From Balneicella halophila (lineage in GTDB: Bacteria > Bacteroidota > Bacteroidia > Bacteroidales > Balneicellaceae), in contig NZ_QENZ01000005.1 in NCBI RefSeq assembly GCF_003096835.1, positions 1 through 64,000 on the forward strand: a DNA stretch of 64,000 bases, in the 5' to 3' direction. Shown in pieces: positions 1-26,808 of the stretch. A program made the translations under genes and the position numbers. The notes beneath the pieces are model-generated. The model did no database searches and was not told where the DNA came from. It saw nothing but the letters and a program-made list of their open reading frames with translations. Every line of letters starts with the position of its first letter. Position 1 is the stretch's first letter.

Positions 1-112
1 TATATGTAATTGGCATAGCACTGCGATGATATAGCATTTACAAAAGGACGGGAATTTGAGTGAAGCGAAAATGTAGGAATTTTGTTCGCCGCAGGCGAAT
101 GCTATATCATCG
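1..112 (-). repeat. ORF-less mini-cassette, copy 2 (cut by window edge)
   Basis: This 112 bp stretch is repeated almost exactly at 855-966 (I see two substitutions). It contains a 15 bp perfect inverted repeat, CGATGATATAGCATT at 24-38 against 98-112, and a smaller hairpin TTCGCC-GCA-GGCGAA at 85-99. On the minus strand the arm at 98-111 stands where a cassette start is expected and the arm at 25-38 where its matching inner site is expected, so this looks like a cassette with no reading frame. Its own attC-like tail lies beyond the window. Copy 1 occupies 685-965. Confidence 0.6.
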
Positions 113-240
113 TGTTTGTGTATGGCTTCGTTGCGGAAAATCAGCTATGATTTTTCGTCGTAAAACGAAGATAGCAAATTGCAAGGAATTTTCGGCAGAA
201 AATTCAGCCGCAATGAGCTATACACGGTGTTGTGTGCCGT
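111..240 (-). repeat. attC-like palindromic site after the DUF3276 cassette
   Basis: The outer stem pairs GTGTATGGCTTCGTTGCGG (from 117) with the complement of CCGCAATGAGCTATACAC (208-225). The inner cassette-specific motif GTTGTGTGCC (229-238) is the exact reverse complement of GGCACACAAC at 675-684, at the start of the same cassette. The gene's stop codon (218-220) lies inside the site, as is usual for integron cassettes. On the minus strand the predicted junction is at about 111. Confidence 0.65.
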
Positions 241-684: not shown

Positions 685-965
685 GCAGTGCTATGTGTAG
701 TTGTCTGTTTTTTTGTGAAGATAATTAAAATCGTTAGATTTTATATTTTGGGAACAAAAAAATAGCAACCAATTGCATATAGCTAATGATGTGTAGCGTA
801 AATCACGCCTTGGCGGCGTTGTTTGATGATAGTGTTTTTTTTAGCTAATAGAGGTATATGTAATTGTCATAGCACTGCGATGATATAGCATTTACAAAAG
901 GACGGGAATTTGAGTGAAGCGAAAATGTAGTAATTTTGTTCGCCGCAGGCGAATGCTATATCATC
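685..965 (-). mobile_element. ORF-less mini-cassette, copy 1
   Basis: This module is bounded on the right by the junction at 965/966 and on the left by the junction at 684. It contains no plausible gene. The arm AATGCTATATCATC (952-965) is matched by GATGATATAGCATT (879-892), and an attC-like tail follows, with the 12 bp perfect stem CGCAGTGCTATG (684-695) against CATAGCACTGCG (868-879). The segment 855-966 is repeated at 1-112. I read it as a non-coding cassette that was duplicated in the array. An 11 bp hairpin around ACGCC-TTG-GCGG sits near 807-820. Confidence 0.55.
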
Positions 966-1155
966 GGTTAGTGTATGTGGAGTGCGGAATTAAAAGTGAT
1001 GAACTTTCAGTTACGCACGGAGCCAATTCGTTTATTCAGTATTTCAAATTTTCCGTCAATCGTCAAAGACGAATTGGCGGTGTTGCAACGAAGAACTGCG
1101 GTTGAATTACCCGCTGAAACCCGCATTACATTTACACTTTGTTGTGCGTTCGTAC
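966..1155 (-). repeat. attC-like palindromic site after the OLD-ATPase cassette
   Basis: The outer arms are GTGTATGTGGAGTGCGG (971-987) and CCCGCATTACATTTACAC (1120-1137). A second inner stem, GCCAATTCGT (1022-1031) with ACGAATTGGC (1069-1078), makes a long branched hairpin. The motif GTTGTGCGTTCGTAC (1141-1155) is the cassette-specific inner site, and its partner GTATGACGCACATC at 2712-2725 is imperfect (GAT in place of GTT at the junction). The ATPase stop codon is 3 nt away. Confidence 0.6.
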
Positions 1156-2679: not shown

Positions 2680-2724
2680 ATTAATCTAAATTGGTTAGTA
2701 TGGACGGTTTAGTATGACGCACAT

Positions 2725-3877: not shown

Positions 3878-3879
3878 AT

Positions 3880-4368: not shown

Positions 4369-4396
4369 TTCGGTTGGTTGCTCGCATTACAGGTAA

Positions 4397-4528
4397 CGGT
4401 TGGTGTATGAAGCGTTGGGCATTTCGAAGCACTTTACTGTCAAACCGCTACAAAGTTTATTAAATGTAACGCCCTTGAAATTAGCACTATCCGCCCAATG
4501 ATTTATACACTTTGTTAGCAACTGGGCG
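4397..4528 (-). repeat. attC-like palindromic site left of the metal-resistance module
   Basis: The arms GTGTATGAAGCGTTGGGC (4403-4420) and GCCCAATGATTTATACAC (4493-4510) pair well, with a central loop that is similar in sequence to the loop of the site at 20081-20211 (shared GAAGCACTT, TTGTTAAATG-like and TTGAA-TT-AGCAC blocks). GTTAGCAACTGGGCG (4514-4528) is the inner motif; its partner, CGCCTTGTTGCTAAC, is 12.6 kb away at 17170-17184 (13 of 15 match after inversion). Confidence 0.65.
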
Positions 4529-7110: not shown

Positions 7111-7189
7111 CGTTTTTGCTTTTAATGTGAATTATTTAAAAAAGCAAGTTGCCCGATATATTAAGGCAACCTGCCCTTAAAGTTATAAA

Positions 7190-7558: not shown

Positions 7559-7562
7559 ATGA

Positions 7563-10067: not shown

Positions 10068-10079
10068 ATTCTTTAAATA

Positions 10080-10409: not shown

Positions 10410-10422
10410 AATTTCCTTATTT

Positions 10423-11715
10423 TTAATGTTCGTGTTCAGTTTCTTCTTTTTTCATATCGGCCAATAGATAGTAAGCCGCATTTAAAACCACCTGTGTGTT
10501 TTCAGGTAAGGAGTTAATCAGTTGTATTTCTGTATAACCTTCGTCTTTTAAACCGGGAATGACCTCTACCATTCTGAAAGCCATCTTTTCTTGAGTTGCA
10601 TCATCATCGTCTGCATCGCCATGTTCATGCCCCTCATGATTTCCTTCTTCAACTTGTGCTTCTTTATCCTCATCGTGTCCGGCATGTTCGGTTTCGCTGT
10701 GCCCTTGTTCTTCAATAGCTTCATTGTCCAAAATAAAAATGAAGGATTTTGTCCCTTCGGAAACAATGGCATCGTTGGGCAAAGCCCTGGTATATTTTTC
10801 ATCTGTATGCAAATGCCCCGAAATGTACATGCCGGGTATAAGCCCAGAAACTTTTTCATTGATTTTTGCATGGATATGAACTGCCCTTGAATTGGCCTCA
10901 AACTCTTTTCCAATGGCAAAAACGGTTGCTGTTAACTCTTCTCCCGGACGGTTTGAAACCGTGAAATGCACTTTTTGGCCTTCTTTTACCAGATGCACAT
11001 CTTTTTCATAAACCATAAAATCGGCATGGATTGCACTATTGTCGGTTATTTCAAGGAGTATGTCTTTTGCATCAACGTAAGTTCCAACTTTTATATTTAT
11101 GTCATTTATAAAACCGTTAATAGGCGACAGAATACTTATTGTGCTTGAAATCTCACCTTCTTTAACTTTATCAGGAGAAAGGTTCAACAACTGCAATCGT
11201 GATTTTAAGCCTTCATATTTAGCCTTAATTGTATTGTATTCAGATTTTGTTTGCTGATAATCCCTACCAGCTCCCACATTATTCTCGAAAAGCTCTTTTT
11301 GGCGTGCATACTCTTTTTCGATAAATTCGAGTTTGCTGGATATTTCAGCAAAGCCCTCCTGTAAAGAGATATAATCGGGATGTTCGAGCACTGCCAGTAA
11401 TTGACCTTTTTTTACCCTATCGCCATGAAAAACATTAATTGTTTTTACATTGCCACCAATAATGGCTGTAACTTCGGCACTGCCTGACGGGGGGACTTCC
11501 AACTGACCATTTGACTTTACAAGCGTTGTTAGATTACGCATTTGAAAAGACCCCAATTTTAAATTTAGGGCTTCACGTTGTCTGGCATTTAAAACTACTG
11601 CCCCTTCAACACCATGCTCTTCATGTTCCTCACCTTCATGGCTATCTTTTTTTTCTGAATTACACGATAACATTGTAGCCACCATGATAAATGCTAAAAA
11701 TATTTTTGTCTTCAT
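10423..11715 (-). CDS. RND efflux periplasmic adaptor (CusB/CzcB family), lipoprotein
   Basis: 430 aa. The start MKTKIFLAFIMVATMLSC is a lipoprotein signal with the acylated cysteine at residue 18. It is followed by a His/Glu-rich stretch (HEGEEHEEHGVEG) and the membrane-fusion body: lipoyl half-motif VFHGDRVKKGQLLAVLEHPD, alpha-hairpin, and beta-barrel. A second His-rich insertion (HSETEHAGHDEDKEAQVEEG) near residue 340 probably binds metal. It bridges the inner-membrane pump to the outer-membrane channel, both encoded by the next gene upstream. Confidence 0.9.
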   Translation of the reverse strand: MKTKIFLAFIMVATMLSCNSEKKDSHEGEEHEEHGVEGAVVLNARQREALNLKLGSFQMRNLTTLVKSNGQLEVPPSGSAEVTAIIGGNVKTINVFHGDRVKKGQLLAVLEHPDYISLQEGFAEISSKLEFIEKEYARQKELFENNVGAGRDYQQTKSEYNTIKAKYEGLKSRLQLLNLSPDKVKEGEISSTISILSPINGFINDINIKVGTYVDAKDILLEITDNSAIHADFMVYEKDVHLVKEGQKVHFTVSNRPGEELTATVFAIGKEFEANSRAVHIHAKINEKVSGLIPGMYISGHLHTDEKYTRALPNDAIVSEGTKSFIFILDNEAIEEQGHSETEHAGHDEDKEAQVEEGNHEGHEHGDADDDDATQEKMAFRMVEVIPGLKDEGYTEIQLINSLPENTQVVLNAAYYLLADMKKEETEHEH

Positions 11716-11733
11716 TTTATATAATTTTTTCGA

Positions 11734-14700
11734 TTATTTACCTGTTAAATATTTCAATTGGGCAGATAATTCATTGTACTCCGCCTGTTGCATTAAAAAA
11801 TCTTGTTTTGTACGTATCGCCGCTTCAGTATTCTGAATAAATTGAACGTAGTCGATACTGCCAAGACGGTACGCTAGGTTGGAAGCCTGAATTTGTTCGT
11901 CGGCCAGAGGCAATGCTTCTTTTTGATAATAGTTGATAACCTGTTGCAAAGTAAGGTAACGGCTAATTTGCTGGTTGTACCCGGCTTTCAGTTCCAGTTC
12001 TTTTTGCTGGTACTGCTGGTTTGCAATTTGGAAGTCGATTTTTGCAGCTTTGGTTTTGCCCGATTGTGAAAAGAAAGCCAGCGGGACAGAAATACCTGCT
12101 TCCCAACCATAAAACCCTGAATTGCCGTCAACCGATTGCCACTTATAACCCAAGTCTAACTTTGGAAGGAAATTGGCTTTTTCCGCTTTCCATGCCGATT
12201 CTGCCACATCAATCCCGGTTGAATAATAATTCAGCAGCGGGCTTTCGCTCAATGAATCAATTTCGGAAACTATATTGAAAGCATACTGCCCCAAATCCTG
12301 TATGTTAACATCTACCGCAATCGGGTATAATAGGTATTGATTCAGAATTTGCAAGTTTGCCAAATAGTTGCTTTCAGCTTTTTTTAAATTTACCTGCAAT
12401 TCTTTGTACTTAGCCGAAGCGGAAAGGTATTCAATCTTAGAAGTAGCTTGTGTTTTGTACCTCAATTCAGCGGCTTTTTGAAAATCGGCGTACAAGGTGT
12501 CAAGGTCTTTAAATAGCTGCCATTGCTGTTTGGCATGGACTGCATTGTACCAGGCAAGACTAACATCACGAGCCAACGAGTATTCCGTAAGTTGCTGACC
12601 GGATAAAGCTTGTTGGGTACGGCTGTTTGCAAGCTTGCTTTTAGCCGGTATGCCGAACAGGTCAATGTCTGTTTGTCCAATCCCGATTTTGTTTTGAATA
12701 CCCGGTGCGTTGTTGCCTACTTCTTCTTTCCCGGTATAAATCGAAGTCGTTCCCAGTTCGTATGCCGTAGCTTTTAACGCTTCCTGTTTGTCGACTTCCA
12801 ATTGGGCTGCCTTAATTGCCGGATAGTTTTCTTTTGCCCTTTCAATGGCTTGTGGCAATGTTAACGCAGAATCCTGCGCATTGGCATTTCCTGAAATTCC
12901 CAAACCTGCAATCACAACAAGAACGGTAAACATCCCTAAAGCTGTTTTTGGCATTTTTATTTTTTTAACGCCACTTTCAACAAATTTATAGAGAATGGGC
13001 AGCACAATAAGCGTCAACAAGGTTGATGTCAACATTCCTCCAATCACCACAGTAGCCAGAGGACGTTGAACTTCTGCTCCTGCCGACGTGGAAACCGCCA
13101 TAGGCAGAAAGCCCAGAATATCGGTAGATGCTGTTAACAGTATTGGTCGGATACGCCTGATAGAACCTTTTATAATAATATCATTGATATGGAGTTTCCC
13201 TTCTGCCTTGAGTTCATTAAAACCCGATATGAGGACTAATCCGTTTAACACAGCCACACCAAACAAAACAATAAATCCCACTCCGGCAGAAATACTGAAT
13301 GGCATATCTCTTAAGTATAATGAGAATACACCACCTACAGCGGCAAATGGTACAGCTACATAAATCATGAGGGTTTGTTTAAACGATTTTACCGCAAAAA
13401 ACACCAACATGAAAATTAATGCTAAAGCGAGTGGAACTACCAGAGTCAATCTTTTTGAAGCTCTTTCGAGGTTTTCAAATGCTCCCCCATACCGAATATA
13501 ATAACCCGTCGGTAGCTCCAAATTTTCATCTAAAGTTGTTTGAATTTCCTCTACGAGCGACTTAATATCCCTGCCTTCAACATTAATCCCCACATAGGTA
13601 CGCCTGTTGGTATTGTCACGGCTAATTTGCATCGGCCCCGGCTGGTAACTTATTTCAGCCACTTCTTTTAAGGGAATTTGATTACCATCGGGAAGATTAA
13701 CAAATAAATTCCTGATATCGTCAATACTTGTGCGGTGTTCTTCGTCCAATCGCACAACAAGGTCAAACATCCGCTCGCCTTCGTAAATGCTTCCGGCAAC
13801 ACCGCCACTAAAAGCAGTTTCAACGATAGTATTAAGTTCTTTAATATTCAAGTTGTACCGACCAAGCTTATTTCTATCGTAATTAACCGTAATCTGAGGT
13901 AATCCTCTTGTTGCTTCAGCTTTCACGGCTGCAATACCATCAATTCCAGAAATTAACCCGGCAATTTCTTCTGCTTTGTCAGCCAGCATTTCCAAATCAT
14001 CGCCATATAGTTTAACGGCAACATCCTGACGAATACCAGTTAGCAATTCATTGAAGCGCATTTCAACGGGCTGGCTAAATTCATAATTGATACCGGGCAA
14101 TACGCTCACTTTTTCTCTCACCTTATCAATTAATTCAGCTTTTGATTCAGCTTTTGTCCACTGGTCTTGTGGGGTTAATATCACAAAAATATCAGCAATA
14201 TCAATTGGCATCGGGTCCATGGGTAAATCTGCCACCCCAATTCTACTTTGGATACTTTCTATTTCATCGGGGAAGTTTTCCAGAACAATTTGTTCCAGAC
14301 GAGTTGAAGCTTTAGTAACCTCAGTTAAGGAAGTTCCCGGCTTTAAAAAAGCCTGAAAAGCAAAATCGCCTTCATCAAGTTTGGGAATAAACTCAGCCCC
14401 CATTCGTGTAAACACGAATCCCCCTGAGATTAACAAGACCAAAGCGATTACAATAACAATCCGGCTTCTTTTCAGTGCCCATACAATTACAGGAGTATAT
14501 ATCTTTTCAAGTTTTCCAATTATTTTATCTCCCCATGATTTTTTATCTGTTTTAGGCGGCTGAATAAACAGAGCTGCCATCATAGGAATATATGTAAGAC
14601 ACAATACTACCACGCCCAATACAGCAAAACCAAATGTCATTGCCATAGGGATGAACATTTTACCTTCGACACCTTGCAAGGCTAATACGGGTATAAAAAC

Positions 14701-16074
14701 AATCAGAATTATGAGCTGCCCAAAAAATGCTGAGTTCATCATTTTACTTGCCGAATTATAGGCAATTTCATTGCGCTTGGTCTGGTCAAGTTTTGTGCCT
14801 ATAAGGTTCTTTCGATGAAGGTAAAAAATCATACTTTCAACAATAATTACTGCTCCATCTACCAATATCCCAAAATCAAGTGCCCCCAAACTCATCAGGT
14901 TTGCCCACACCCCAAACAGGTTCATCATAATAAATGCAAATAGCAAGGCCAGCGGAATGGTTGATGCCACAATTAAACCGCCCCTTAAATTCCCGAGGAA
15001 TATAACCAGCACAAAAATAACAATCAGCGCACCCAACGACAGGTTTTCGGCAACGGTAGATGTGGTGCTTTTAATGAGCTTACTGCGGTCAAGAAAAGGT
15101 TTAATTTCAACACCATCAGGCAGTGATTTTTGAATTAAGGCCATCCGCTCTTTTACATTCTTAATCACATCGTTTGAGTTTTCGCCTTTCAGCATCATCA
15201 CGATTCCGCCAACGGCCTCTCCCTTTCCGTCTTTGGTAAAAGCACCATAACGGACAAAACTTCCGAATTTCACTTCTGCTACATCCCTGATGAAAATGGG
15301 TTGCCCGTCAATGTTTGCAACCAACGTATTTTTAATATCATCCAACGAACGCATCAACCCTTCGCCACGGATAAAGTTGGCCTGAAAATTTTTCTCGATA
15401 TATGCGCCGCCTGTGTTCTGATTGTTGTCGTCAAGTGCTTCAAAAATATCCGAAATGGCTAAACCCATACTTCTGAGTTTATCAGGATTAACAGCGACTT
15501 CGTATTGTTTACCCCTGCCCCCAAAAGAGTTTACTTCTACCACTCCGGGCAGCATAGCCATTTGTCGTTTTACAATCCATTCCTGCATGGTGCGCAGTTC
15601 CATGTCGTTATAAACGGTATCGTAACCGGGTTGCACTTCAAGCGTGTATTGATAGATTTCGCCCAAACCCGTACTTATTGGAGCCATAAAAGGCTGTCCA
15701 AAACCATCGGGAATTTTTTCTTTTACTTCTGCCAAGGCTTCACTTACCAATTGCCGGGGTAAATAGGTTCCCGCACTTTCTTTAAAAACAATGGTAACAA
15801 CAGAAAGCCCAAAACGTGACACGCTTCGTATTTCAGTCACATCAGGGAGGTTTGCCACGGCTAATTCTACCTGATAGGTTACAAACTGTTCAATGTCTTC
15901 TGTACCCAAATTGGGTGCAGTTGTGATTACCAATACTTGATTGTTTGTAATGTCAGGTGTGGCGTCAAGCGGCACTTTGGTCATAGAATATATTCCGCCA
16001 ATAATCAGTCCGATTGTCATCAGCCCGATAAGTGCCTTATTCTTTATTGAAAAGGATATTATTTTGTTTATCAT
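11734..16074 (-). CDS. CusA/CzcA heavy-metal RND pump fused to a TolC-type channel
   Basis: About 1446 aa. Residues 1-1040 form a heavy-metal RND pump (MINKIISFSIKNKALIGL, VPLDATPDITNNQV, LDFGILVDGAVIIVESM and the second-half TM block). After a second signal-like helix (FTVLVVIAGLGISGNANAQ) the last 400 residues are an outer-membrane factor domain (LPQAIERAKENYPAIKAAQ and periodic coiled-coil segments). Such fusions are known in Bacteroidota; how the channel half reaches the outer membrane, perhaps by cleavage at the NANAQ site, is unclear. I choose ATG 16074 rather than the upstream frame start, because MINKIISFS is the family's normal beginning. Confidence 0.9.
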   Translation of the reverse strand: MINKIISFSIKNKALIGLMTIGLIIGGIYSMTKVPLDATPDITNNQVLVITTAPNLGTEDIEQFVTYQVELAVANLPDVTEIRSVSRFGLSVVTIVFKESAGTYLPRQLVSEALAEVKEKIPDGFGQPFMAPISTGLGEIYQYTLEVQPGYDTVYNDMELRTMQEWIVKRQMAMLPGVVEVNSFGGRGKQYEVAVNPDKLRSMGLAISDIFEALDDNNQNTGGAYIEKNFQANFIRGEGLMRSLDDIKNTLVANIDGQPIFIRDVAEVKFGSFVRYGAFTKDGKGEAVGGIVMMLKGENSNDVIKNVKERMALIQKSLPDGVEIKPFLDRSKLIKSTTSTVAENLSLGALIVIFVLVIFLGNLRGGLIVASTIPLALLFAFIMMNLFGVWANLMSLGALDFGILVDGAVIIVESMIFYLHRKNLIGTKLDQTKRNEIAYNSASKMMNSAFFGQLIILIVFIPVLALQGVEGKMFIPMAMTFGFAVLGVVVLCLTYIPMMAALFIQPPKTDKKSWGDKIIGKLEKIYTPVIVWALKRSRIVIVIALVLLISGGFVFTRMGAEFIPKLDEGDFAFQAFLKPGTSLTEVTKASTRLEQIVLENFPDEIESIQSRIGVADLPMDPMPIDIADIFVILTPQDQWTKAESKAELIDKVREKVSVLPGINYEFSQPVEMRFNELLTGIRQDVAVKLYGDDLEMLADKAEEIAGLISGIDGIAAVKAEATRGLPQITVNYDRNKLGRYNLNIKELNTIVETAFSGGVAGSIYEGERMFDLVVRLDEEHRTSIDDIRNLFVNLPDGNQIPLKEVAEISYQPGPMQISRDNTNRRTYVGINVEGRDIKSLVEEIQTTLDENLELPTGYYIRYGGAFENLERASKRLTLVVPLALALIFMLVFFAVKSFKQTLMIYVAVPFAAVGGVFSLYLRDMPFSISAGVGFIVLFGVAVLNGLVLISGFNELKAEGKLHINDIIIKGSIRRIRPILLTASTDILGFLPMAVSTSAGAEVQRPLATVVIGGMLTSTLLTLIVLPILYKFVESGVKKIKMPKTALGMFTVLVVIAGLGISGNANAQDSALTLPQAIERAKENYPAIKAAQLEVDKQEALKATAYELGTTSIYTGKEEVGNNAPGIQNKIGIGQTDIDLFGIPAKSKLANSRTQQALSGQQLTEYSLARDVSLAWYNAVHAKQQWQLFKDLDTLYADFQKAAELRYKTQATSKIEYLSASAKYKELQVNLKKAESNYLANLQILNQYLLYPIAVDVNIQDLGQYAFNIVSEIDSLSESPLLNYYSTGIDVAESAWKAEKANFLPKLDLGYKWQSVDGNSGFYGWEAGISVPLAFFSQSGKTKAAKIDFQIANQQYQQKELELKAGYNQQISRYLTLQQVINYYQKEALPLADEQIQASNLAYRLGSIDYVQFIQNTEAAIRTKQDFLMQQAEYNELSAQLKYLTGK

Positions 16075-16146
16075 TTGATTTCTATAAATTTTTAATGTGA
16101 ATACGATTAATAATAATGATATGAGCAAATTGTTAAGATGAAACGA

Positions 16147-16446
16147 TTATATTTTGGGAGGTTGCCAGATAGAAGAAAAATGATTTGAAAATCTTGATTC
16201 TTTGAAAGTAATATTCAAAGCAACCACTTCAACATTGGACAATAAACCATTAAAAAAAGATGGGAAAGAAAGTGTTTGGCAACAATGACAAAAACAAAAA
16301 GGGGAACATAAATCAACATCACTTGTGTGATTTTGGCTTTGTTCCGCCAATTCCAAGGTGGCAGAATTTGTGCCAGCATGTACATCATTGCAAGGTATGG
16401 CTGTTAAAACCATTACATACACTGATAATATTACTGCTATATATTT
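16147..16446 (-). CDS. DUF6660-like Cys/His-rich secreted protein
   Basis: About 99 aa from MKYIAVILSVYVMVLTAIPC, a signal peptide or lipoprotein-like start. The mature part has the cluster LCSPFCFCHCCQ, a likely metal-binding site; this arrangement (secretion signal plus CxPFCxCxCC) fits the small DUF6660 family that precedes CusA-type pumps. The upstream frame extends further, but its first 46 residues overlap the Fur-type gene and look non-coding. A periplasmic metal-binding role is inferred. Confidence 0.7.
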   Translation of the reverse strand, partial: KYIAVILSVYVMVLTAIPCNDVHAGTNSATLELAEQSQNHTSDVDLCSPFCFCHCCQTLSFPSFFNGLLSNVEVVALNITFKESRFSNHFSSIWQPPKI

Positions 16447-16519
16447 CATCTGCAAATTCTTATTTCTAATAATTACAACTACAAAAATACTATATAGTTC
16501 GTGCAACCGAGTTGCAAAC

Positions 16520-16933
16520 TTACTTTTTGCAATTTGAACAAATACCTTTGACAACAAAGTTTGCACTGGAAAATTCAAATCCATTGGGTAAGTCTGGCTG
16601 GGGAACAGGTAAATCTTTCATACAATACGTTTTTCCGCATTTGTTGCATAAAAAATGAACATGTAAATGTTCTGGTTCGCAAGTGCAAAAATCTTCGCAA
16701 AGTGCGTATCTTAAAGAGCCAGAGCCATCTTCAATTGAATGAATGAGTTGATGTTCCTGGAAAGTTTTTAAAGTTCTATATAACGTTGCTTTATCAGCTT
16801 TTTCAAATTTTTGTTCTAATTCAGGCAAACTAATAGCCGTTTTTTGTTCTGTCAGAACTTGTAAAACCAACTGTCGCATTGCGGTTGGTTTGATATTTTT
16901 CAAGTTGAGTTTGTTGTCTATTTCCTTTTTCAT
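16520..16933 (-). CDS. Fur-family transcriptional repressor
   Basis: 137 aa from MKKEIDNKLNLK. The winged helix is seen in TAMRQLVLQVLTEQKTAISLPELE and KATLYRTLKTFQEHQLIH; the metal-binding C-terminal half contains CEPEHLHVHFLCNKCGKTYC and the final CSNCKK, giving two CxxC pairs. It is the first gene of the metal-resistance series and probably represses it, with release by metal. The frame extends 16 codons upstream, but the ATG at 16933 fits the family length. The operator would be expected in 16934-17000; no clear palindrome was found there. Confidence 0.85.
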   Translation of the reverse strand: MKKEIDNKLNLKNIKPTAMRQLVLQVLTEQKTAISLPELEQKFEKADKATLYRTLKTFQEHQLIHSIEDGSGSLRYALCEDFCTCEPEHLHVHFLCNKCGKTYCMKDLPVPQPDLPNGFEFSSANFVVKGICSNCKK

Positions 16934-17071: not shown

Positions 17072-17183
17072 GTGGGTCAGGGTTTCCCTTCTTCTTTTTG
17101 CGGGGGGAGAAAAAACAAAATAAATTCCTCCAAGTTTGCACCGAACTTTTATAATTGCATGTCTTTTTTCGCCTTGTTGCTAA

Positions 17184-17367
17184 CGGTCTTGCTAAGTTGC
17201 GTGGGCGATTTAAAAGAATTTACTATCCAAATCGCACGAAAGCAAGCCGAATAAATTTGTTTATATTTTTTTGCAAACCAATTTATATGGCTTGCTGGTG
17301 TTTCTTAATTGAACTAACTCTCAAGCAACTCGTCACCGCCCATGAAATTTAGCTTTTGTTATATGGC
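17184..17367 (-). repeat. attC-like palindromic site after the Ere-like cassette
   Basis: GCTAAGTTGCGTGGGCG (17191-17207) pairs with CGCCCATGAAATTTAGC (17337-17353). The centre carries further inverted pieces. GTTATATGGC (17358-17367) is the exact reverse complement of GCCATATAAC at 18630-18639, the other end of this cassette. The junction G of the next module is at 17184. The stop codon of the esterase-like gene is 4 nt outside the motif. Confidence 0.65.
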
Positions 17368-17371
17368 GTTT

Positions 17372-18613
17372 TTACTTCATTTCTTCGATTGGCACTTGTT
17401 CTTTAGATTCTCTTATCAATATTGCATAATCTATGAATTGTAAAGTATTTTTTCCTTTTAGTTTTCTTGTATTATGGTCTTTAAGAAACATTTTAATCTC
17501 TACTAAATCTGTCTCATGTGAATAAGGTGAGTTTTTTTGATTAAGTTTAAACAAAGTCAAATCGGAAAGACTTGCCTTTTTCAGATTTTTAATTCCTTTA
17601 AAATACTCTTTCCAATAATCCGAAATTCCGTAACCTGCTTTAGTTGTATAGCTTCTATAATTTCCGTCTTCATCATATTTTTTGTCCCAAAGAACTTTAC
17701 TTTTTGTTAAATATCCCATTATTGTAATTACGTTATTTCTCTCGTAAACATTGTTTTCGATTAACCGAGTGAAAAATGAAGGATAATTTCCTTCACGTTC
17801 TTTTTGAATATGGAAGTAACCATATTTGGCAAATTGTTTCTTATCTGATAAGTTTAGTTTTTTATGCAAATACATATAGTTTGCAAAGATGATTTTTTCT
17901 CTTTCTCTTTTCTCTTTAAAATTGTAATTGATATTACCAATAATATGATCAAAATCGTCAATATCAGTAATTAACTCCTTGTATTTTTCTTTATTAGAAA
18001 GATAATCTTGAACAAATGATTTAACTATTGAGTTTATTTCTTTGTTCCATATTCCAAAATCTAGATCAACTTGAAGGTTTACTTTTTTCAAATTTTCTCG
18101 TTCATTCCAACTGTTATCATCTTTTGTGAGGTGTAAAATGTGTTTTATTGGAAAACGATATTCGTTTACAACGTCACAGCCAATAACTTTAATTGATTTA
18201 TTTGGATATTTTAAGTTTAATTCACGAATGTTTTTCCAATGATTAAAAGTTTCGATTGTTCCTTCTTGAGAAACTATAGTTTGAAAAGAAAGAGTAAGTT
18301 CCTTTAATAATTTCTCATTCCCTGTTTTAAGGTATTCTTGAAAATAATATGCTTGGCTGTAATTCGTTTCAATTATATAGTAATCCAAAAGATTTTTTTC
18401 TACCAATGAACTTACCAAACTTAATTCTGCGTCATACGTTTTCGCACTTCCGTGTAATGCTCCAAAACCAATAATGTTAAAATCAGTTTCTGTTATCATT
18501 GGACTATCTGTTCTCAAATCAACCCTATTATCAGATAGATAATCAGTATTTTTTTGTCCGAAAATTGCTTGAACGAATAATATAAATAGAATAGTTAATT
18601 TCGTTTTTATCAT
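17372..18613 (-). CDS. erythromycin-esterase-like secreted protein (cassette gene)
   Basis: 413 aa from MIKTKLTILFILFVQAIFGQ, a clear signal peptide. The region IIGFGALHGSAKTYDAE, then LLDYYIIETNYSQAYYFQEYL and IKVIGCDVV, follows the pattern of EreA/EreB-type hydrolases (G-H-G, an acidic E after it, and the strand ending in GxD). Overall similarity is weak, so the substrate may not be a macrolide. The frame also opens at 18634, but that ATG is formed by the cassette junction itself; the ATG at 18613, directly at the signal peptide, is more credible. It is the sole gene of its cassette. Confidence 0.6.
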   Translation of the reverse strand: MIKTKLTILFILFVQAIFGQKNTDYLSDNRVDLRTDSPMITETDFNIIGFGALHGSAKTYDAELSLVSSLVEKNLLDYYIIETNYSQAYYFQEYLKTGNEKLLKELTLSFQTIVSQEGTIETFNHWKNIRELNLKYPNKSIKVIGCDVVNEYRFPIKHILHLTKDDNSWNERENLKKVNLQVDLDFGIWNKEINSIVKSFVQDYLSNKEKYKELITDIDDFDHIIGNINYNFKEKREREKIIFANYMYLHKKLNLSDKKQFAKYGYFHIQKEREGNYPSFFTRLIENNVYERNNVITIMGYLTKSKVLWDKKYDEDGNYRSYTTKAGYGISDYWKEYFKGIKNLKKASLSDLTLFKLNQKNSPYSHETDLVEIKMFLKDHNTRKLKGKNTLQFIDYAILIRESKEQVPIEEMK

Positions 18614-18638
18614 TGTGTCTTTCTTAAATGCCATATAA

Positions 18639-18767
18639 CGGTAAATTGTATGGTTAGCTGTGGTTTTTCGGGCGATTTCCTTTCCGCATACACACCGCTT
18701 TGAGGCGTGTGGGGGGCGCTGAAACGACCACTGCGCCCACAGTTAACTATACAAAATGTTATGTGGC
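18639..18767 (-). repeat. attC-like palindromic site after the 415-aa cassette
   Basis: TGTATGGTTAGCTGTGG (18648-18664) pairs with CCCACAGTTAACTATACA (18737-18753), and the middle holds CACACCGC with GCGTGTGG. GTTATGTGGC (18758-18767) is the exact reverse complement of GCCACATAAC at 20072-20081. The stop codon TAA of the preceding gene is contained in this motif. The junction for the next cassette is at 18639. Confidence 0.7.
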
Positions 18768-20006
18768 GTTATTATGTTCATTTTCAATTCCTAACAATCT
18801 AGCAAATTCTAGTTTTACAGGATTCATAAACGCAGGTAGTTTTTGCTCAATTGAATCTGCATTCATGATAGAAGCGATATATTTAAAATCATTAATTTTC
18901 TTTGTATCATAGCTACGGGACTTAATAGATAGCTGATTGTCAATCATAAAAAATGATAGAATCTCATTTTTTGCATGTTTAATTCTTTCTTTACTATCAA
19001 GATTTTTTATATCACTAACACTGTATGCATACATTTCAGTAACAAAGAGAATATTGACTATATCATCTTTCTCTATTCGTTTTGCGATTTCATTAAACTT
19101 CCTGTATACTGTAGTTTTGATTGAAAACTCAAAACTATTTAATTCAAAAGTGTTATCACTGTATACTATCATACAAGTCGGCATTAGTTTGTTTTGCATT
19201 TGGAAAATCACTAAATGCATTAATTCAAACTTGCTTAAAATATCTCCATCAGACTTGAATTGATTTAAATTTTCAATAGAAGCTCTGTGTTTCCTATCTC
19301 CAGTAGTCAATGCAATTCTAGATGCTTTTTCAAATTTTTCATTTTTACAATTGAAGACATAATCGTCTACAAAAAGAAAATCTTTTGGCACTCGATAAAA
19401 ATTCATCTTTTCTATTCTTCGTTCCAGCTCTTCTGATAAAATACAATCTTCATTCAACACCTTTTTCATACCAGACAAAAGTTGTTTCATTTGTGTTATT
19501 CCTAAAATAAAATTATCGTATAAGTCTTTTGTATGTCCTCGCTCATAAAACATGAACTCTACAGAAAAGAAGACTTCTATTTGACCTGAATTTAAAAATA
19601 TCTCCCTTAATGATTCGACTATAGATGAGAATTCTACATCATTTTCAATCGTAAAAATAAACTCTGGTAGGGTATAGATACTCTTACCTGAATAGATGTT
19701 GATTACTATTCTTTTTTCTAAATCAAATGGTTGTTCTTTGGTTATATTATTCCGTTTATCTATAAACCATTTACCCACATCATAAATAAAAAATTTATCT
19801 CGTAGTTGCTCATAAACAGAACTAAATTCCGTTTTAGCCAAAGATTTTTGCAAAACAAATGTGATGTTTCTGTATTCTGAAAAAAAATTATCTAAGTGGC
19901 TTATATTATCGAAGAAGTTTGACCCTTTTTCAAATTTTTCCAAACTGCTTAAAGCACTATAAAATTTATGTAAGGCTGGATATAGTAAACCTCTTGAATT
20001 TTTCAT
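18759..20006 (-). CDS. unknown 415-aa protein (cassette gene)
   Basis: Family not recognised. It has no signal peptide and no convincing membrane helix. The first 100 residues are helical (LHKFYSALSSLEKFEKGSNF, then DNFFSEYRNITFVLQKSLAK) and contain WFIDKRNNITKEQPF, which resembles a HEPN-like RNase motif region in which the usual histidine is missing. The second half alternates beta strands and helices (KLMPTCMIVYSDNTFELNSF). The gene ends inside the attC-like site, and its ATG lies 66 nt inside the cassette boundary. A defence or stress role is possible from cassette context only. Confidence 0.65.
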   Translation of the reverse strand: MKNSRGLLYPALHKFYSALSSLEKFEKGSNFFDNISHLDNFFSEYRNITFVLQKSLAKTEFSSVYEQLRDKFFIYDVGKWFIDKRNNITKEQPFDLEKRIVINIYSGKSIYTLPEFIFTIENDVEFSSIVESLREIFLNSGQIEVFFSVEFMFYERGHTKDLYDNFILGITQMKQLLSGMKKVLNEDCILSEELERRIEKMNFYRVPKDFLFVDDYVFNCKNEKFEKASRIALTTGDRKHRASIENLNQFKSDGDILSKFELMHLVIFQMQNKLMPTCMIVYSDNTFELNSFEFSIKTTVYRKFNEIAKRIEKDDIVNILFVTEMYAYSVSDIKNLDSKERIKHAKNEILSFFMIDNQLSIKSRSYDTKKINDFKYIASIMNADSIEQKLPAFMNPVKLEFARLLGIENEHNNAT

Positions 20007-20080
20007 TTAATCTATATTGAATATATGTTTATGCCTAATAATCGATTTAATTGCAATGCTGTTTTTTTAATGCCACATAA

Positions 20081-20211
20081 CGGTTTGTGTATGGTTAGTG
20101 GCGGATTTAGAAGCACTTAACTTTCGGTTTAGCACTTGGTTTGTTAAATGCCAAAACCTTGAATTTCAGCACGAAACCGCCATTAACTATACACTTTGTT
20201 GTAAACAGTGC
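20081..20211 (-). repeat. attC-like palindromic site after the LtaS/DgkA cassette
   Basis: GTGTATGGTTAGTGGCGG (20087-20104) pairs with CCGCCATTAACTATACAC (20178-20194 area). The stem is interrupted by a small asymmetric bulge next to the junction, reminiscent of attC. GTTGTAAACAGTGC (20198-20211) matches the reverse complement of GCATTGTTTACAAC (22582-22595) at 13 of 14 positions. The loop sequence resembles that of the site at 4397-4528. Confidence 0.7.
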
Positions 20212-20212
20212 A

Positions 20213-22177
20213 TTATTTTTTTAGTTTCATTAATCCATTTTTATATCGATAATCATTTGTTTGATAATAAGAAATAATATCTTTTAATTGTATTGAATCT
20301 TCTTTTTCAGGATTTAAAGTATTGGTTATTTTTTCATAAGTATAAAAAGATACTTTCTTTTGGTCGCCTAATACAGTTAATTTATTTCCTTTTAGCAACC
20401 CAAGTTTTCTGTAATTTCCAAAAAACGCTCTTTGTTCATTCTCTTTAATTGTATTTATATCTTTCCCGTAAAAATTAGATGTGTAATTCCAACCTAAATA
20501 TCCAAAAAGTGTTGGAAATAAGTCTATTTGCGAGGTCTGTTTTTCAATTTTACTTGGTTCTATGTTTGGTAGATTATAAATTATTGCTGGAATATGGTAT
20601 TTATCAACATTCAATTCCCATTTTCCAGCAGAACTTGCACAATGGTCTGCCATAAATACAATTACAGTATTATTATACCAAGGTTTGTTTTTAATTTTGT
20701 TGATAAACTCTCCAATCGCGAAATCTGTATATTTTACTGCACCATTTCTTCCTGTTCCAGATGGAATATCAATTTTATTGTTAGGGTATGTATATGGTCT
20801 GTGGTTTGAAGTAGTCATAATAAAATTAAAGAACGGTTTTTTATTAGAATAACTTTTATCCGCTTCCTTTATTACTTGTTTATAAATATCTTCATCACAA
20901 ACGCCCCAAGCATTTTCAAATTGAATCTCATTATCTTTTATGTTTGTTCTTTTTGCTGTAAAAGAATCTCCAAAAAGATAACCTCGACCTCTATCTACAA
21001 TGTCAAAACCATTACCGCCAAAAAAGGTATTCATATTGTCAAAATAACCATCTCCACCATAGAAAAAAGTTCTTGAGTATCCTTTTTCTTTAAAAACATC
21101 ACCAATATTATACAAATTTGTGTTGTCTTTTCTTTTCACAATGCTTCTTCCAGGTGAAGGAGGAACAGATAACATAATTGCTTCCATTCCTCGAACTGTT
21201 CTTGTTCCGGTTGCATATAAATTCTCAAAAGAAATACTTTGGTTTATTAAAGAATCTAAATTAGGTGTTATGTTATTTTTATTACCAAAATTGTTTAAAA
21301 AATCTGCATTAAAACTTTCCAAACAAATAAAGATAACATTGGGTTTTATTTCTGTTCTATAACTTTTTATTGTTCGTTCAATACTATTTGGCTCGTTTGA
21401 AAATAAGGTATCATTTTGTGTTATTAATTTTTGTTTCAAATCTTTAAAAGAGTATTCTAAATCTTGAGTTTTATAAAAATCTGTATAACTCAATTCATTA
21501 TTTCTAAAAGCAGCGAAAAAGGAATAAATTCCCGCTTTTGAAATTTCGTTTTCGTATCTGTTTTTAGACCACTCAGCATCTGTATTACTTATATAAAAAC
21601 CAAAAAACAAGGGGATTAACAATCCTATAAATAATAATAGTTGCTGTTTTTTAGTTATTTTTAAAGAAAAAGTATGTGTAAAAGCTTTTTGTTTTTTTAA
21701 AATAAAATATTGTAAAAATACCAAAAGAAATATGATAAGTAAAAGCAATGGTATTGGATAAGATTGATTGATGTTTTCTACCACTTCATAGGTGTAAATT
21801 AAATAATCTACTGCAATAAAGTTAAATCTATTTTGAAACTCCTCCCAAAAAGTGAATTCTGCGAAAAATGAAAAGGTTAGTATTATTGTTGTTATAAAAT
21901 AAAACGTATAGGTAAATAATTTATCAAAAATAGTTCCAACCCATTTATTAGGAAAAAGTATTAAATAGGTAAAGTAGATAATCGTAAAAAATGAAATAAC
22001 GCCAATGTCAAAAAACAGCCCGAAAAACAAAGTTTTAAAAAAAGCTATTATAGAAAAATCTATATTACTAAATGACCAAATATAAAGTACTAACCTTACA
22101 ATAAATGATATAATTAAGAATTGAATAATAAAGAAATATACAAGCGATAATCGATTGTTTTTAAAGATTTTAAACAT
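20213..22177 (-). CDS. LtaS-like membrane sulfatase-family phosphotransferase (cassette gene)
   Basis: 654 aa. Five hydrophobic helices occupy about residues 10-180; the rest is a periplasmic alkaline-phosphatase-superfamily domain with CLESFNADFLNNFGN, NLYATGTRTVRGMEA (nucleophile threonine), FIMTTSNHRPYTYP and FMADHCASS (metal-binding DH). These are marks of LtaS/MdoB-type phosphoglycerol transferases, which move phosphoglycerol from phosphatidylglycerol to a glycan and leave diacylglycerol. The next gene upstream in the same cassette encodes a diacylglycerol kinase and overlaps by 8 nt, which suits recycling of that product. The acceptor in a Gram-negative host is unknown. Confidence 0.8.
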   Translation of the reverse strand: MFKIFKNNRLSLVYFFIIQFLIISFIVRLVLYIWSFSNIDFSIIAFFKTLFFGLFFDIGVISFFTIIYFTYLILFPNKWVGTIFDKLFTYTFYFITTIILTFSFFAEFTFWEEFQNRFNFIAVDYLIYTYEVVENINQSYPIPLLLLIIFLLVFLQYFILKKQKAFTHTFSLKITKKQQLLLFIGLLIPLFFGFYISNTDAEWSKNRYENEISKAGIYSFFAAFRNNELSYTDFYKTQDLEYSFKDLKQKLITQNDTLFSNEPNSIERTIKSYRTEIKPNVIFICLESFNADFLNNFGNKNNITPNLDSLINQSISFENLYATGTRTVRGMEAIMLSVPPSPGRSIVKRKDNTNLYNIGDVFKEKGYSRTFFYGGDGYFDNMNTFFGGNGFDIVDRGRGYLFGDSFTAKRTNIKDNEIQFENAWGVCDEDIYKQVIKEADKSYSNKKPFFNFIMTTSNHRPYTYPNNKIDIPSGTGRNGAVKYTDFAIGEFINKIKNKPWYNNTVIVFMADHCASSAGKWELNVDKYHIPAIIYNLPNIEPSKIEKQTSQIDLFPTLFGYLGWNYTSNFYGKDINTIKENEQRAFFGNYRKLGLLKGNKLTVLGDQKKVSFYTYEKITNTLNPEKEDSIQLKDIISYYQTNDYRYKNGLMKLKK

Positions 22178-22538
22178 ATGTTAAGATATAAGGTAAGTAT
22201 GTTATTATGAAAATTATTAGAAAAGTAAGCATTGCAAATGTTACTGCGCCAGCAGAAATATCTTTGATAAAGCCTATTTTTGGGTGGTGTTCTTTATGTA
22301 TAAAATCTGCTGTTTTTTCTACGGCTGTATTCATTCCTTCTATACTTAACACTAATCCCATAGCAAAAGTTTGATTTATCCAGTCTTGTTTTGAAATACC
22401 TAAAAGAATACCTAAAATTATAATACCTAAAAAAATGATTGATTGTGCAATTATACTATGTTCTGTTTTAATTAGTAAAAAAAATCCTTTTATTGCATAT
22501 TTGAAACTTTTCAATCTTCCTTTTAAAAAAATATTCAT
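22170..22538 (-). CDS. diacylglycerol/undecaprenol kinase (DgkA family)
   Basis: 122 aa, three membrane helices. The sequence follows the family: RLKSFKYAIKGFFLLIKTEHS, then VLSIEGMNTAVEKTADFIH (the conserved E and N-T-A-E-K catalytic region) and KDISAGAVTFAMLTFLI. It phosphorylates diacylglycerol or undecaprenol at the inner membrane. It is the first gene of the cassette nearest the recombinase, 44 nt from the predicted insertion point, so a promoter at the attI-like region would drive it first. Overlap with the sulfatase gene suggests translational coupling. Confidence 0.85.
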   Translation of the reverse strand: MNIFLKGRLKSFKYAIKGFFLLIKTEHSIIAQSIIFLGIIILGILLGISKQDWINQTFAMGLVLSIEGMNTAVEKTADFIHKEHHPKIGFIKDISAGAVTFAMLTFLIIFIITYLPYILTYV

Positions 22539-22581
22539 TTTTGTTTAGTGTTAATTTTATTGAATGCAGAATTACCTTCGC

Positions 22582-22758
22582 GCATTGTTTACAACACACA
22601 AATATACGCAATTCCTCTAAATTATATGCATAATTGTTGAAATTTTGTATTTTTATTGATTATCAGGCGTCTATGAGAATATTTCATATGCGTATTTTGC
22701 GTAACAATTGTTGCGTATTATATGTATCTTTACCATCTGATATATAAAATGCGTAGTG
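22582..22758. other. attI-like recombination region between cassettes and recombinase
   Basis: GCATTGTTTACAAC (22582-22595) is the outer end of the first cassette; the predicted junction G is at 22595. To its right, before the recombinase gene, lie three TGCGTA repeats and the imperfect palindrome TTGCGTAACAATTGTTGCGT (22697-22716), plus the inverse motif TACGCAA near 22605-22611. These could be binding sites for the recombinase. The region separates divergently transcribed units, as attI does in integrons. Confidence 0.5.
22599..22606 (-). promoter_or_regulatory. candidate cassette promoter (Pc-like) at the attI edge
   Basis: On the minus strand this reads TATATTTG, a perfect match to the Bacteroidota -7 element TAnnTTTG. 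It is only 4 nt from the predicted insertion point, so transcription would start almost at the first base of the inserted cassette. A clear -33 TTG at the best distance is not seen. Confidence 0.4.
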
Positions 22759-23829
22759 ATGGATTTAGAAAAGTACAGGTTTAAGCAGGGAACTTGCAAA
22801 GGTAAAAATGTAATTTGGATTGCTTTTCCATATTCTGTAAAATTGAAAGATGACTTGAAAAGGCGCTTTCCTTCGGCTCGGTGGAGTGTCACAAATAAAA
22901 TGTGGTATTTAACTGATTTGCCATCAGTAAGAAGTGTGCTAAATATTAAGCAGAGAGAAGAGGTAGGAGAGTTTTACAAATCAAAAATACTTCCCGTTAA
23001 TCAGCAAGCGTTGAATAGTTTTATTCATCAATTGAAGTTAAAAGCATATAGCCGAAATACCATTCGTATTTATGTCGCTGAATTCACACATTTATTAGAA
23101 TTATTAAAAAATAAAAATGTAGATGAATTAACGTCTGAACAACTAAAATCATATTTTCTTTATTGTATCAATTCGCTGGGAATGAAAGAAGCGAAAATGA
23201 ATGGCAAAATAAATGCTGTTAAATTTTATTATGAAAAAGTATTGCATCAGCCACGAATGTTTTTTGATATTCCTCGACCTAAAAAACCACAAGTTTTGCC
23301 AAAGATGTTGAGTAAGAGTGAAATTAAAAAGATTTTTAACCAAATTGAAAACCGTAAGCATTTATTAATGTTAAAATTGTGCTATGGAATGGGCTTGCGA
23401 GTCAGTGAAGTGGTTAATTTAAAAATTCATCATATCGATAGTTCACGGATGCAAGTTTTAATAGGAGGTGCAAAGGGTAAAAAAGACCGCTATGTAAATT
23501 TACCTGAGTCAGTATTGGGATTGCTTCGGGAATATTATTTAGAATATAAACCTAAGGATTGGCTCTTTGAAGGGCAGTATGGAGGACAATATTCTGCACG
23601 TAGTGTACAGGCTGTTTTTAAAAAAGCGATGAAAAAAGCCAATATACATAAGCAGATAGGTATCCATGGATTACGACACAGCTATGCTACTCATTTACTG
23701 GAAAGTGGTGCAGACTTGCGATTTATACAGGAACTTTTGGGACACAATAGCATTAAAACTACACAAGTTTACACGCATGTAACAAATACCTCAAAATCAA
23801 AAGTAAAAAGTCCGTTAGATTCACTCTAA
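22759..23829 (+). CDS. tyrosine recombinase, IntI-like, of the cassette array
   Basis: 356 aa from ATG 22759 (a GTG one codon upstream is possible). Residues about 1-65 form a small extra domain (FPSARWSVTNKMWYL recalls HARP-type motifs). A SAM-like core-binding domain (ALNSFIHQLKLKAYSRNT) follows. The catalytic set, numbered from the GTG, is R215 (GMGLRVSEV), K240 (GAKGKKDRY), H304-R307 (HGLRHSYATHLLESG), H330 (LLGHNSIKTTQ) and Y339 (VYTHV). The last residues KSPLDSL resemble the IntI tail, but the 15-20 residue IntI-specific insertion expected near residue 265 is absent. It is divergent from the cassette array, which fits an integron integrase. Confidence 0.85.
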   Translation: MDLEKYRFKQGTCKGKNVIWIAFPYSVKLKDDLKRRFPSARWSVTNKMWYLTDLPSVRSVLNIKQREEVGEFYKSKILPVNQQALNSFIHQLKLKAYSRNTIRIYVAEFTHLLELLKNKNVDELTSEQLKSYFLYCINSLGMKEAKMNGKINAVKFYYEKVLHQPRMFFDIPRPKKPQVLPKMLSKSEIKKIFNQIENRKHLLMLKLCYGMGLRVSEVVNLKIHHIDSSRMQVLIGGAKGKKDRYVNLPESVLGLLREYYLEYKPKDWLFEGQYGGQYSARSVQAVFKKAMKKANIHKQIGIHGLRHSYATHLLESGADLRFIQELLGHNSIKTTQVYTHVTNTSKSKVKSPLDSL

Positions 23830-23937
23830 AGAAGTATTTTTTAACAAAATATTATAGATTTGGTTTATATATTTTAATATTTTACAAGATTTTACATTTA
23901 TTTTGTTGTAATATTAGGTAGTGTCAAATATTAGCGG

Positions 23938-24154
23938 TACGTTTGCACCATAATATAAAAGACACCTATTTAAGTCCGTTTACAATACAATTAGTTTTAT
24001 CGAGTTTTACTCATCTTTCCAATTATATTTTCACAACAACTTTACCAATAGCGTTTCTGAAAAGAATGGATGTTTCCATTGTAAGATCGCAAATCATTAT
24101 GTGTCTTTTTATTATAGAAAATAATAATTAATAAAACATTTAAAATTAAGTAAA
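23938..24154 (+). promoter_or_regulatory. csp promoter and long 5' leader
   Basis: TACGTTTG at 23938-23945 matches TAnnTTTG and would give a leader of about 200 nt before the cold-shock gene. Long leaders that refold with temperature are known for csp mRNAs. A short hairpin AATGGA-TGTT-TCCATT occurs near 24064-24079. The segment 23830-23937 is very AT-rich and I see nothing else in it. Confidence 0.4.
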
Positions 24155-24442: not shown

Positions 24443-25368
24443 TTACTGTTTATTTTTTGCTTTGATAAAATCTGAAATAAGGAAACTGAGAAATTCTCCC
24501 ACTTGAGTTCTCGTTAGTTCATCGGAACTTATAGCAGGTGCACCTTCGCAGATATGCAAATAGCTTGTATTTTTGTTTTGTGCCATATACGAAGTGAAAC
24601 GCCGTGCTTGCTCGGGAGTGAAACCACTCGGAGTTATGGCACTGCTAGGAAATCCCTGTATAGAGTCCAAGTCTATTTCAATACCATAGGGTTTTTCACT
24701 GATAAACATTATTCCTCGCTCTAGTTCCGCATCAAAATCACGTGATTTGTATATGGCGATCTGCTCAAATGTATTGAGTTTGAAATTGTCATTTTTAGCA
24801 ATCGTGTCAAAAATATACTGTGGCGTTCTTCCAATTTTCTAAGATCTGTATGTGCATCTAGATTGACCACGTTTATCGGCGTTTTTTTGGCTAACGATAA
24901 TCCTTTCAGGTTGCCATAAGCATTGTTGTGCCCACCACCTACAATAATAGGAGTTTTCTTGCAATCAATGATTTGCTGAACCAAACTGGAAACTTCATTA
25001 TCAATTTTTTTGACCAATGCATCTCCTTCTTTTTTACTCATATATTCAAAGTCCATTACGTCTTCGAAAAAGTCCAAGTGCCCTAAGATTAGGATATCTT
25101 TACCTGTAATAAATTGGTTTTCTTGAATGTTGAGCAATGAAGTAAGTGCAGGAGTGTAAGCGGAGTACGCACCCCCAACTCAACGGTTCATTCGCACACC
25201 GATATCTTCCGGAATACCAAAAAGAACATATTTATAAGGAGACCTTTTTAGTTCTTCGAGATAATCTTCTTGATTCTTGATCACAGAAACAACTTCGCCT
25301 AATTTTACTTCTCCTTTTCGTGGTTTTATAAATGAATTTAACTCATGTTGGGTAGTTATGTGCAACAT
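24443..25368 (-). pseudogene. decayed arginase-family (formimidoylglutamase-like) gene
   Basis: Three pieces of one arginase-fold protein lie in order. The N-terminal 62 residues end in GIPEDIGVRMNR followed by an in-frame TGA (25180-25182), and the same frame continues with VGGAYSAYTPAL. The middle has the metal-binding motifs IVGGGHNNAYG and NVVNLDAHTDLRK. After LEERHS the frame changes: FDTIAKNDNFKLNTFEQIAI continues in another frame to EIDLDSIQGFPSSAITPSG and the stop. The second metal half is incomplete, so residues are missing at the join. A functional enzyme is unlikely. Confidence 0.85.
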
Positions 25369-25392: not shown

Positions 25393-26808
25393 TTAGAATA
25401 ATTCGTTTTTCTTATTGGCTTCGTCAAACTTGGCTTTCATAGTCGGATTGCCATGAGTGAGTTTTTTTATGGTAAGGTCATCAGCTTTATTGTTTGCCAG
25501 ACGCAGGTTGTTCTCAGAAGAGAGCAATGCTTCTTTCGTTTTTTGCAGATGATTGATTGTTTTGTCTATTTCATCAATTGCAGTTTTAAACTTGCGACTC
25601 GCTAAGTCGTAATTCCTTGCAAATCCTGTTTTAAAAGCATTTATTTTTTCTTCAAAATTGGTAATGTCGATGTTCTGACTTCTCATCAGATTGAGTTCTG
25701 CTTTGTATTTTAAAGAATTCATGGCCGCATTACGAAGCAAGGTGATGATTGGGATAAAAAACTGAGGACGAATCACATACATCTTTGGATATTTGTGCGA
25801 AACATCTACAATTCCTTGGTTGTAAAATTCATTATCAGCTTCGAGAACAGAAACCAAAACTGCATATTCGCAATTTTTCTGATTACGATCTTTATCTAAT
25901 TCTTTAAAAAAATCTTCATTTTTCTTTTTAGTAGCCGTCTCATCACCTTCGTTCTTCATTTCAAACATAATGGAGATGATTTCATTACCCTCATTATCTT
26001 CTTCTTTGTAAATGAAATCTCCTTTACTGCCTTGCCTTGCATCATTATCTTTTTCAAAATAAGCATTAGGGAAGGCTGTGGCTCGGATTTTATTAAACTC
26101 AATTTCACAATGTTGCTCTAAATTTTCGCCTAACATCTTTGTTGATTGCCTTACTTTAAAATCTTTATAGAATGCAACTTCTTCTTCTTTTGATTTTAAT
26201 TTAATTTCGTATTTTTCAGTCAATGATTTTTCGAGCAGTTGTTGTTCTATTTCCTTACTTTTTAAATGGCTGGCTAAATCGTCACGTTCTTTTTCTATGG
26301 CTTTGGTAGCTTCCGACACTGCTAACTGTTTTTGTACTTCCGCATTCGCTATTTTTGACTGCAAAGTTGCTAGTTCAGACTCTTTTTGTGCTAGTTTTTC
26401 TTTAAGCAGTTCCTCTGTTTTTGCTTTGGCATCGGTGAGCTCTTTTTCAATAGCCTTTGTAGCTTCTGATACTGCTAATTGCTTTTGCACTTCGGCATTG
26501 GCCATTTTAGATTGCATCTCTGATAGTTCGGACTCTTTATTCGCCAGTTTTTCTTTAAGCAGTTGCTCAGTTTTTGCCTTTTCTTCGGTGAGTTCTTTTT
26601 CAGTTCTCGCTAAATGCTGTTGAAATTTCGATCGTTGCTTTTCCTCAGCGAGCTTTATCGCATCATTTTTTTCTTTTTCGGCAAGATGAAGACGCTCCGT
26701 TAGTTCTTTGTCAAATTGATTGTCTCTTACTTGTTTTAGAATCGACGCAAATCCTGCTTCGTCTACTTTAAAAACTTTTTTGCAATTTGGACAGATAATT
26801 TCGTTCAT
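25393..26808 (-). CDS. DUF2130 protein with internal coiled-coil duplication
   Basis: 471 aa. It begins with a CPNC knuckle ([10 protein letters not shown]), followed by a long coiled coil (about 30-215) and the DUF2130 domain ([20 protein letters not shown], then [20 protein letters not shown] and [16 protein letters not shown]). Residues 71-121 and 122-172 are a tandem copy of the same 51-residue segment. The DUF2130 fold has a nuclease-like EMKN/K pattern in the core, but its role is not known. ATG at 26808, no clear operon partner; the adjoining arginase remnant is on the same strand. Confidence 0.85.
26293..26598 (-). repeat. 153 bp tandem duplication inside the DUF2130 gene
   Basis: Two in-frame copies of a 153 bp unit encode the repeated coiled-coil segment KTE(E/Q)[19 protein letters not shown]. 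Length is a multiple of three, so expansion or contraction would keep the frame. Confidence 0.75.

Follow-up and report, generated by a model that had tools for sequence, protein, structure and literature searches.

An integrase without the IntI-specific insertion and its attC cassette array in Balneicella halophila

The integrase gene and the cassette array

The window considered here is the whole stretch of 64,000 nt analysed from Balneicella halophila (contig NZ_QENZ01000005.1, positions 1 to 64,000). It carries on the forward strand an integrase gene (22759..23829), an intact and real ORF of 356 aa, whose product includes an N-terminal domain (residues 1-61), a core-binding domain (about residues 84-165) and a catalytic domain, and ends with the tail KSPLDSL. 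Pfam assigns Phage_integrase (E=1.6e-41) and SAM_4, the latter beginning at residue 85, and the catalytic residues identified by alignment are R214, the lysine hairpin 239-242, H303xxR306, H329 and Y338. A preliminary description of the gene had pointed to extra N-terminal residues ahead of the core-binding domain; indeed, about 80 residues precede SAM_4, and the first 61 model as a compact beta-beta-alpha-beta-beta-alpha domain (pLDDT 88).

The integron integrase profile TIGR02249 gives the protein 201.7 bits, under its curated cut-off of 265, and aligns in two pieces (2-176 and 239-315 of 315) with 60 nt of the gene between them. Profile positions 177-238, where the IntI-specific insertion resides, are replaced by only 20 residues, and the KSPLDSL tail fully matches the last profile positions. 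In a common alignment, the stretch running from VNLPES to HGLRHSYAT counts 66 aa in the window integrase and 66-70 aa in about 100 relatives versus 108 aa in seven IntIs including IntI1. The missing insertion, of about 42 residues, is absent from all of these aligned relatives. Profile and alignment uphold the first reading of the tail and catalytic block as IntI-like, and the absence of the IntI-specific helix near residue 265 had been placed correctly. The nearest NCBIfam profile is archaeal XerA, with 210.6 bits and a cut-off of 220 that is not reached. A full structure model, built with five sequences and of moderate quality (pLDDT 71), has VchIntIA (PDB 2A3V) as its best fold match by Foldseek (E=9e-14), Xer coming second. 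The membership test places the recombinase outside the strict definition of IntI; the element behaves like an integron and has integron sites.

Within the window, the integrase gene stands at the head of a genuine cassette array. On the reverse strand, 163 nt upstream of the gene, an attI-like core (22586..22595, GTTGTAAACA) forms the start of the first cassette, the G|TT crossover being expected between 22595 and 22594. The attI-like region from this core to the start codon (22596..22758) includes ACACAAATATACGCAATT, which adjoins the core and is kept in the clade. A candidate Pc promoter on the reverse strand (22599..22606, TATATTTG) fits the -7 box of Bacteroidota (TAnnTTTG) and would point into the cassettes; by eye, the TATATTTG box adjoins the core in most loci. 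All cassettes and attC sites of the window lie on the reverse strand. Cassette 1 (20081..22594) encodes a diacylglycerol kinase (22170-22538) and a sulfatase-family protein (20213-22177) and ends with an attC of 124 nt (20078..20201; covariance model E=2e-20). Cassette 2 (18639..20080), with a 415-aa protein of unassigned function (18759-20006), and cassette 3 (17184..18638), with a 420-aa protein devoid of Pfam match (17372-18634), follow with attC sites of 126 nt (18636..18761; E=7e-16) and 181 nt (17181..17361; E=2e-7), respectively. Farther left, close to the contig start, the array displays attC sites at 4394..4517 (124 nt; E=1.5e-21), 962..1144 (183 nt; E=9e-6) and 108..232 (125 nt; E=3e-10), together with an ORF-less cassette copy of 282 nt (685..965) joined at the attC crossover and a second, partial copy (1..111) within which the contig breaks.

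In integrons, each cassette begins, just past the crossover, with bases complementary to the core of its terminal attC. This signature is complete in the window, where the attI/cassette 1 junction, cassette 2 and cassette 3 each match their own core at 7/7 positions. The match averages 5.29/7 in 56 pairs of neighbouring sites, most of them from relatives, versus 2.52 for permuted pairs, with a maximum of 3.05 in 500 permutations, and the control comparing the two ends of the same site gives 2.46/7. For the attI core and the nearest attC in 11 loci of the clade, the mean is 5.4/7, a value reached by 0/2000 permutations. An element end 160 nt upstream of the gene, with a mobilizable unit downstream, was also considered and rejected, the supposed end being the attI core matched by the first attC.

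Other features of the window were recorded along with the array. The region 5937-16584 (reverse strand), attC-free and located between the attC sites at 17181 and 4394, contains metal-efflux type genes and is perhaps an insertion into the array. The block 1162-4368 (reverse strand), between attC sites, encodes an AAA ATPase near AriA/OLD (PADLOC E=1e-80), an MBL-fold protein (PDC-M48B) and PDC-M48A (E=5e-57), and represents a candidate defence system. Downstream of the integrase gene, an inverted repeat (23918-23966) is not an attC according to the covariance model. Adjacent ORF fragments at 24443-25368 (reverse strand) resemble by eye a broken gene of the formiminoglutamase/arginase family, a coiled-coil-like ORF includes a tandem repeat of 153 nt in two copies 80% identical (26288-26593), and a Flavo-1 RNA (RF01705, 56.8 bits) is found at 49397-49484 (reverse strand).

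Beyond the window, the covariance model finds 28 attC sites in the genome. The attI region and codons 1-31 of the integrase gene are repeated (94%) at C5:369579-369835, where the gene is cut after codon 31 and followed by a second array of seven attC sites; this second attI copy adjoins a VIT/CCC1-like gene. The genome contains the ORF-less cassette of 282 nt (GATGATATAGCATT...CACTGC) at 25 places, joined at the attC crossover wherever inspected. The start of this cassette complements its own core, with GAT/ATC in place of GTT/AAC, and many contigs of the genome end within it.

Structure and strand asymmetry of the attC sites

Four of the window sites (20078-20201, 18636-18761, 17181-17361 and 4394-4517) were found by a scan for [TC]AAC..GTT[AG] cores and stems. 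They share one orientation, and all score above the best of 40 whole-window shuffles. The covariance model was seeded with 30 aligned sites, three of them from the window and found earlier by the independent scan, and it recovers six sites in the window. Among these 30 sites, the proposed stem is paired in 91% of cells versus 62% after shuffling and 33-41% when slid, and 167 cells are changed on both sides versus 60 in shuffled sets. In total, 141 distinct attC sites were collected in 1.41 Mb versus 0 in shuffles. Their arms are long, with about 18 pairs, and the unpaired spacer is asymmetric, with 1-3 nt on one side and 4-6 nt on the other.

Most stems are unbulged. Indeed, 104/141 sites, including all four scanned window sites, have no bulge within the first 15 pairs, and the extrahelical bases of the bottom strand by which canonical attC sites are recognized are missing from these 104/141 sites. 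For the remaining 37/141, allowing one bulge in the first 15 pairs improves the alignment; extrahelical bases are thus not wholly absent, and the site scans prefer long unbroken stems, which biases these counts against bulged sites. The canonical control from the same phylum is a weak one, limited to four attC sites, all of them bulged. Applied to 13 canonical IntI loci of the same phylum, the covariance model returns only two weak matches.

The two strands of the unbulged stems are not equivalent. Departures from Watson-Crick pairing with top-strand A-C, seen as G-T on the bottom strand, number 183, versus 20 with G-T on the top (p=4e-34), and they cluster around stem positions 8 and 13. The bottom strand gives the more stable fold in 44/59 sites (p=1e-4). 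Both the mostly unbulged stems and the A-C/G-T positions are consistent with an enzyme in which no I2 helix reads extrahelical bases.

Relatives of the integrase and their distribution

A FastTree phylogeny nests the window integrase within the attC-bearing family. IQ-TREE separates this family, IntI (support 100) and Xer (99), the monophyly of the family relative to IntI being weak (SH-aLRT 73). The window integrase groups with the family and IntI, apart from the XerC and XerD of the sampled genomes. It had been anticipated that a firm placement in XerC/D, with no cassettes near relatives, would speak against an integron-like recombinase; the placement found is another one, and cassettes occur near relatives as well as in the window.

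At E<=1e-50, relatives of the integrase are present in 129/393 genomes of the order to which the window belongs, and attC sites are detected by the covariance model in 228/393. Both occur in 112 genomes, the integrase only in 17, attC only in 116 and neither in 148, giving an odds ratio of 8.4 (Fisher p=5e-17) that serves as a guide only, related genomes not being independent. For some of the 116 attC-only and 17 integrase-only genomes, another enzyme, the strict threshold or gaps in draft assemblies have to be invoked. Canonical IntI exceeds the cut-off in 105/395 genomes of the phylum, and a single genome among those with a match belongs to the class of the window. The own genome includes no IntI over the TIGR02249 cut-off and possesses separate Xer proteins forming their own branch. 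When viral contigs were searched with the window integrase, no relative was found.

The position of the array differs between members. In the clade of the window, the array lies upstream and is divergent, whereas in much of the wider family it lies downstream and runs in the same direction as the integrase gene. In a scan limited to TAAC..GTTA cores at high threshold on one side each, which misses the upstream arrays of the window's clade, 46 attC-like sites were found downstream of relatives versus 8.7 in shuffled sequences, and 6 versus 4.7 upstream, mostly of 123-128 nt. Contig breaks fall within 500 nt of the 3' end of relatives in 37/98 cases versus five at the 5' end (p=4e-7), and repeats are therefore suspected at the 3' ends.

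On the plasmid NZ_CP041688.1 of Chryseobacterium SNU WT5, a relative annotated as an integron integrase is followed by three attC sites in the same direction, which suggests from the sequence a plasmid-borne integron of the insertion-less type. Two other relatives (L026 and L027) adjoin mobilization-type genes and also have attC sites upstream. A truncated recombinase beside tet(X3), on plasmid pHH1107 (L148, 4052-4717) and in Acinetobacter, is a relative with 50% identity, and the covariance model finds no attC near it on the tet(X3) plasmid.

Recombination without the I2 helix

What is observed comprises the integrase-attI platform with its attC sites and cassette-end signature, a second array, and an aligned family that lacks the insertion throughout. 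On this basis, the protein is very probably the integrase of a type of chromosomal integron found, as sampled, in Bacteroidia, and recombines folded attC sites with attI. Canonical IntI binds the folded bottom strand of attC, with the I2 helix docking an extrahelical base (PMC3053210, PMC7790495). In the proposed mechanism, the window integrase itself would carry out the reaction, joining folded attC sites of about 125 nt to the attI located just upstream of its own gene, so that cassettes would accumulate in an array running away from that gene on the opposite strand. By analogy with known integrons, the bottom strand would be the folded substrate. Recognition would then depend on the hairpin shape, on the asymmetric unpaired spacer (1-3 nt versus 4-6 nt) and on two conserved positions (bottom-strand G-T, top-strand A-C), in place of the extrahelical bases that the I2 helix docks.

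A different recognition of folded single strands had been suspected from the start. The part of this idea that stands is that an insertion-less recombinase sits with folded attC-type sites, whereas the suggested role of a HARP-like N-terminal domain as the reader is not supported. That this domain replaces I2 as the single-strand reader is unlikely. It is a common feature, a W..W motif being seen ahead of the core domains in 54/112 sequences of the family set, some of which show by eye several similar segments, and it bears a weak resemblance to HARP, with the profile matching 1/22 family members (E=0.07) and the HARP structure 4o66 at E=0.46. However, a PDB fold search with the domain model gives no match at E<0.3, and a relative of 283 aa without this domain (L061) heads an array of many attC sites, so that the domain is not needed in general for an array. 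The HARP resemblance is a weak sequence lead, and neither profile nor fold searches bring out HARP. DUF5710, to which the domain is nearer than to HARP, matches it in 11/22 members (best E=4e-6).

Ordinary tyrosine recombination, in which the integrase would use attC and attI in double-stranded form and the hairpins would be a by-product of inverted arms, is improbable. A family without I2 would suit such a reaction, since this helix is held to be an innovation for single-strand recombination (PMC7790495), but the arms of about 18 pairs covary strongly between sites of different sequence, meaning that shape is kept rather than sequence, and the strand-specific A-C/G-T pattern is understandable if a folded strand is used. 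Very improbable is the view that the protein is a lone Xer-type recombinase, or serves an integrative mobilizable element as its integrase, and that the attC arrays are remnants mobilized by a different, canonical integrase: the short, Xer-like catalytic domain, the archaeal XerA profile and the two relatives beside mobilization-type genes would agree with it, but the genome has its own Xer proteins and lacks IntI over the cut-off, cassette 1 is attached to the attI-like core adjoining the integrase gene, the scarcity of canonical IntI in the class (one genome in the phylum sample) is at odds with attC in 228/393 genomes of the order, and the mobilization-linked relatives carry upstream attC too.

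The integron reading places the element between known systems. With IntI, as represented by VchIntIA (2A3V), IntI1 and TIGR02249, the window integrase shares the catalytic block and the C-terminal SPLD tail, and with IntI systems an attI beside the gene, attC arrays and the cassette-end signature; it differs by the lack of the I2-helix insertion, the extra N-terminal domain, a separate branch and a score under the TIGR02249 cut-off. Like chromosomal integrons such as the Vibrio cholerae superintegron, the system includes dozens of similar attC sites of about 125 nt, unidirectional cassettes with unknown and candidate defence genes and, in the window's clade, a divergent integrase gene. Unlike them, its integrase is I2-less, its sites are mostly unbulged with G-T/A-C positions, and a downstream array in the integrase direction is usual for much of the wider family. 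XerA, XerC and XerD have a catalytic domain of similar length, but they form their own branch and are encoded by separate genes in the same genome.

Integrons are considered to have become possible once a tyrosine recombinase gained the I2 helix, with intermediates lacking (PMC7790495). In surveys requiring the IntI domain, Bacteroidetes appeared as carriers of cassette-less integrases and of one complete integron, in Salinibacter (PMC9024848). A survey (PMC8138268) notes that the insertion is not fully conserved within the integron-like subgroup of tyrosine recombinases, to which the insertion-less family members may belong; the passages covered describe no cassette arrays for members without the insertion. 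In the literature covered, from which preprints and most subscription papers are absent, no description was found of insertion-less integrases with attC arrays in Bacteroidia.

Bacteroidota with helix-less integrases seem to run integrons differently. We lean slightly towards the view that Bacteroidia own a large integron class with I2-less single-strand recombination, mostly without extrahelical bases and with a strand choice set by G-T wobbles that turn into A-C mismatches on the opposite strand; recombination of single-stranded cassettes would then predate I2 or have had a second origin. If this is true, widespread I2-less integrons would open the origin of such recombination to direct testing, and a major phylum would be found to have an overlooked system of gene exchange, present also on a plasmid and with a candidate phage-defence cassette.
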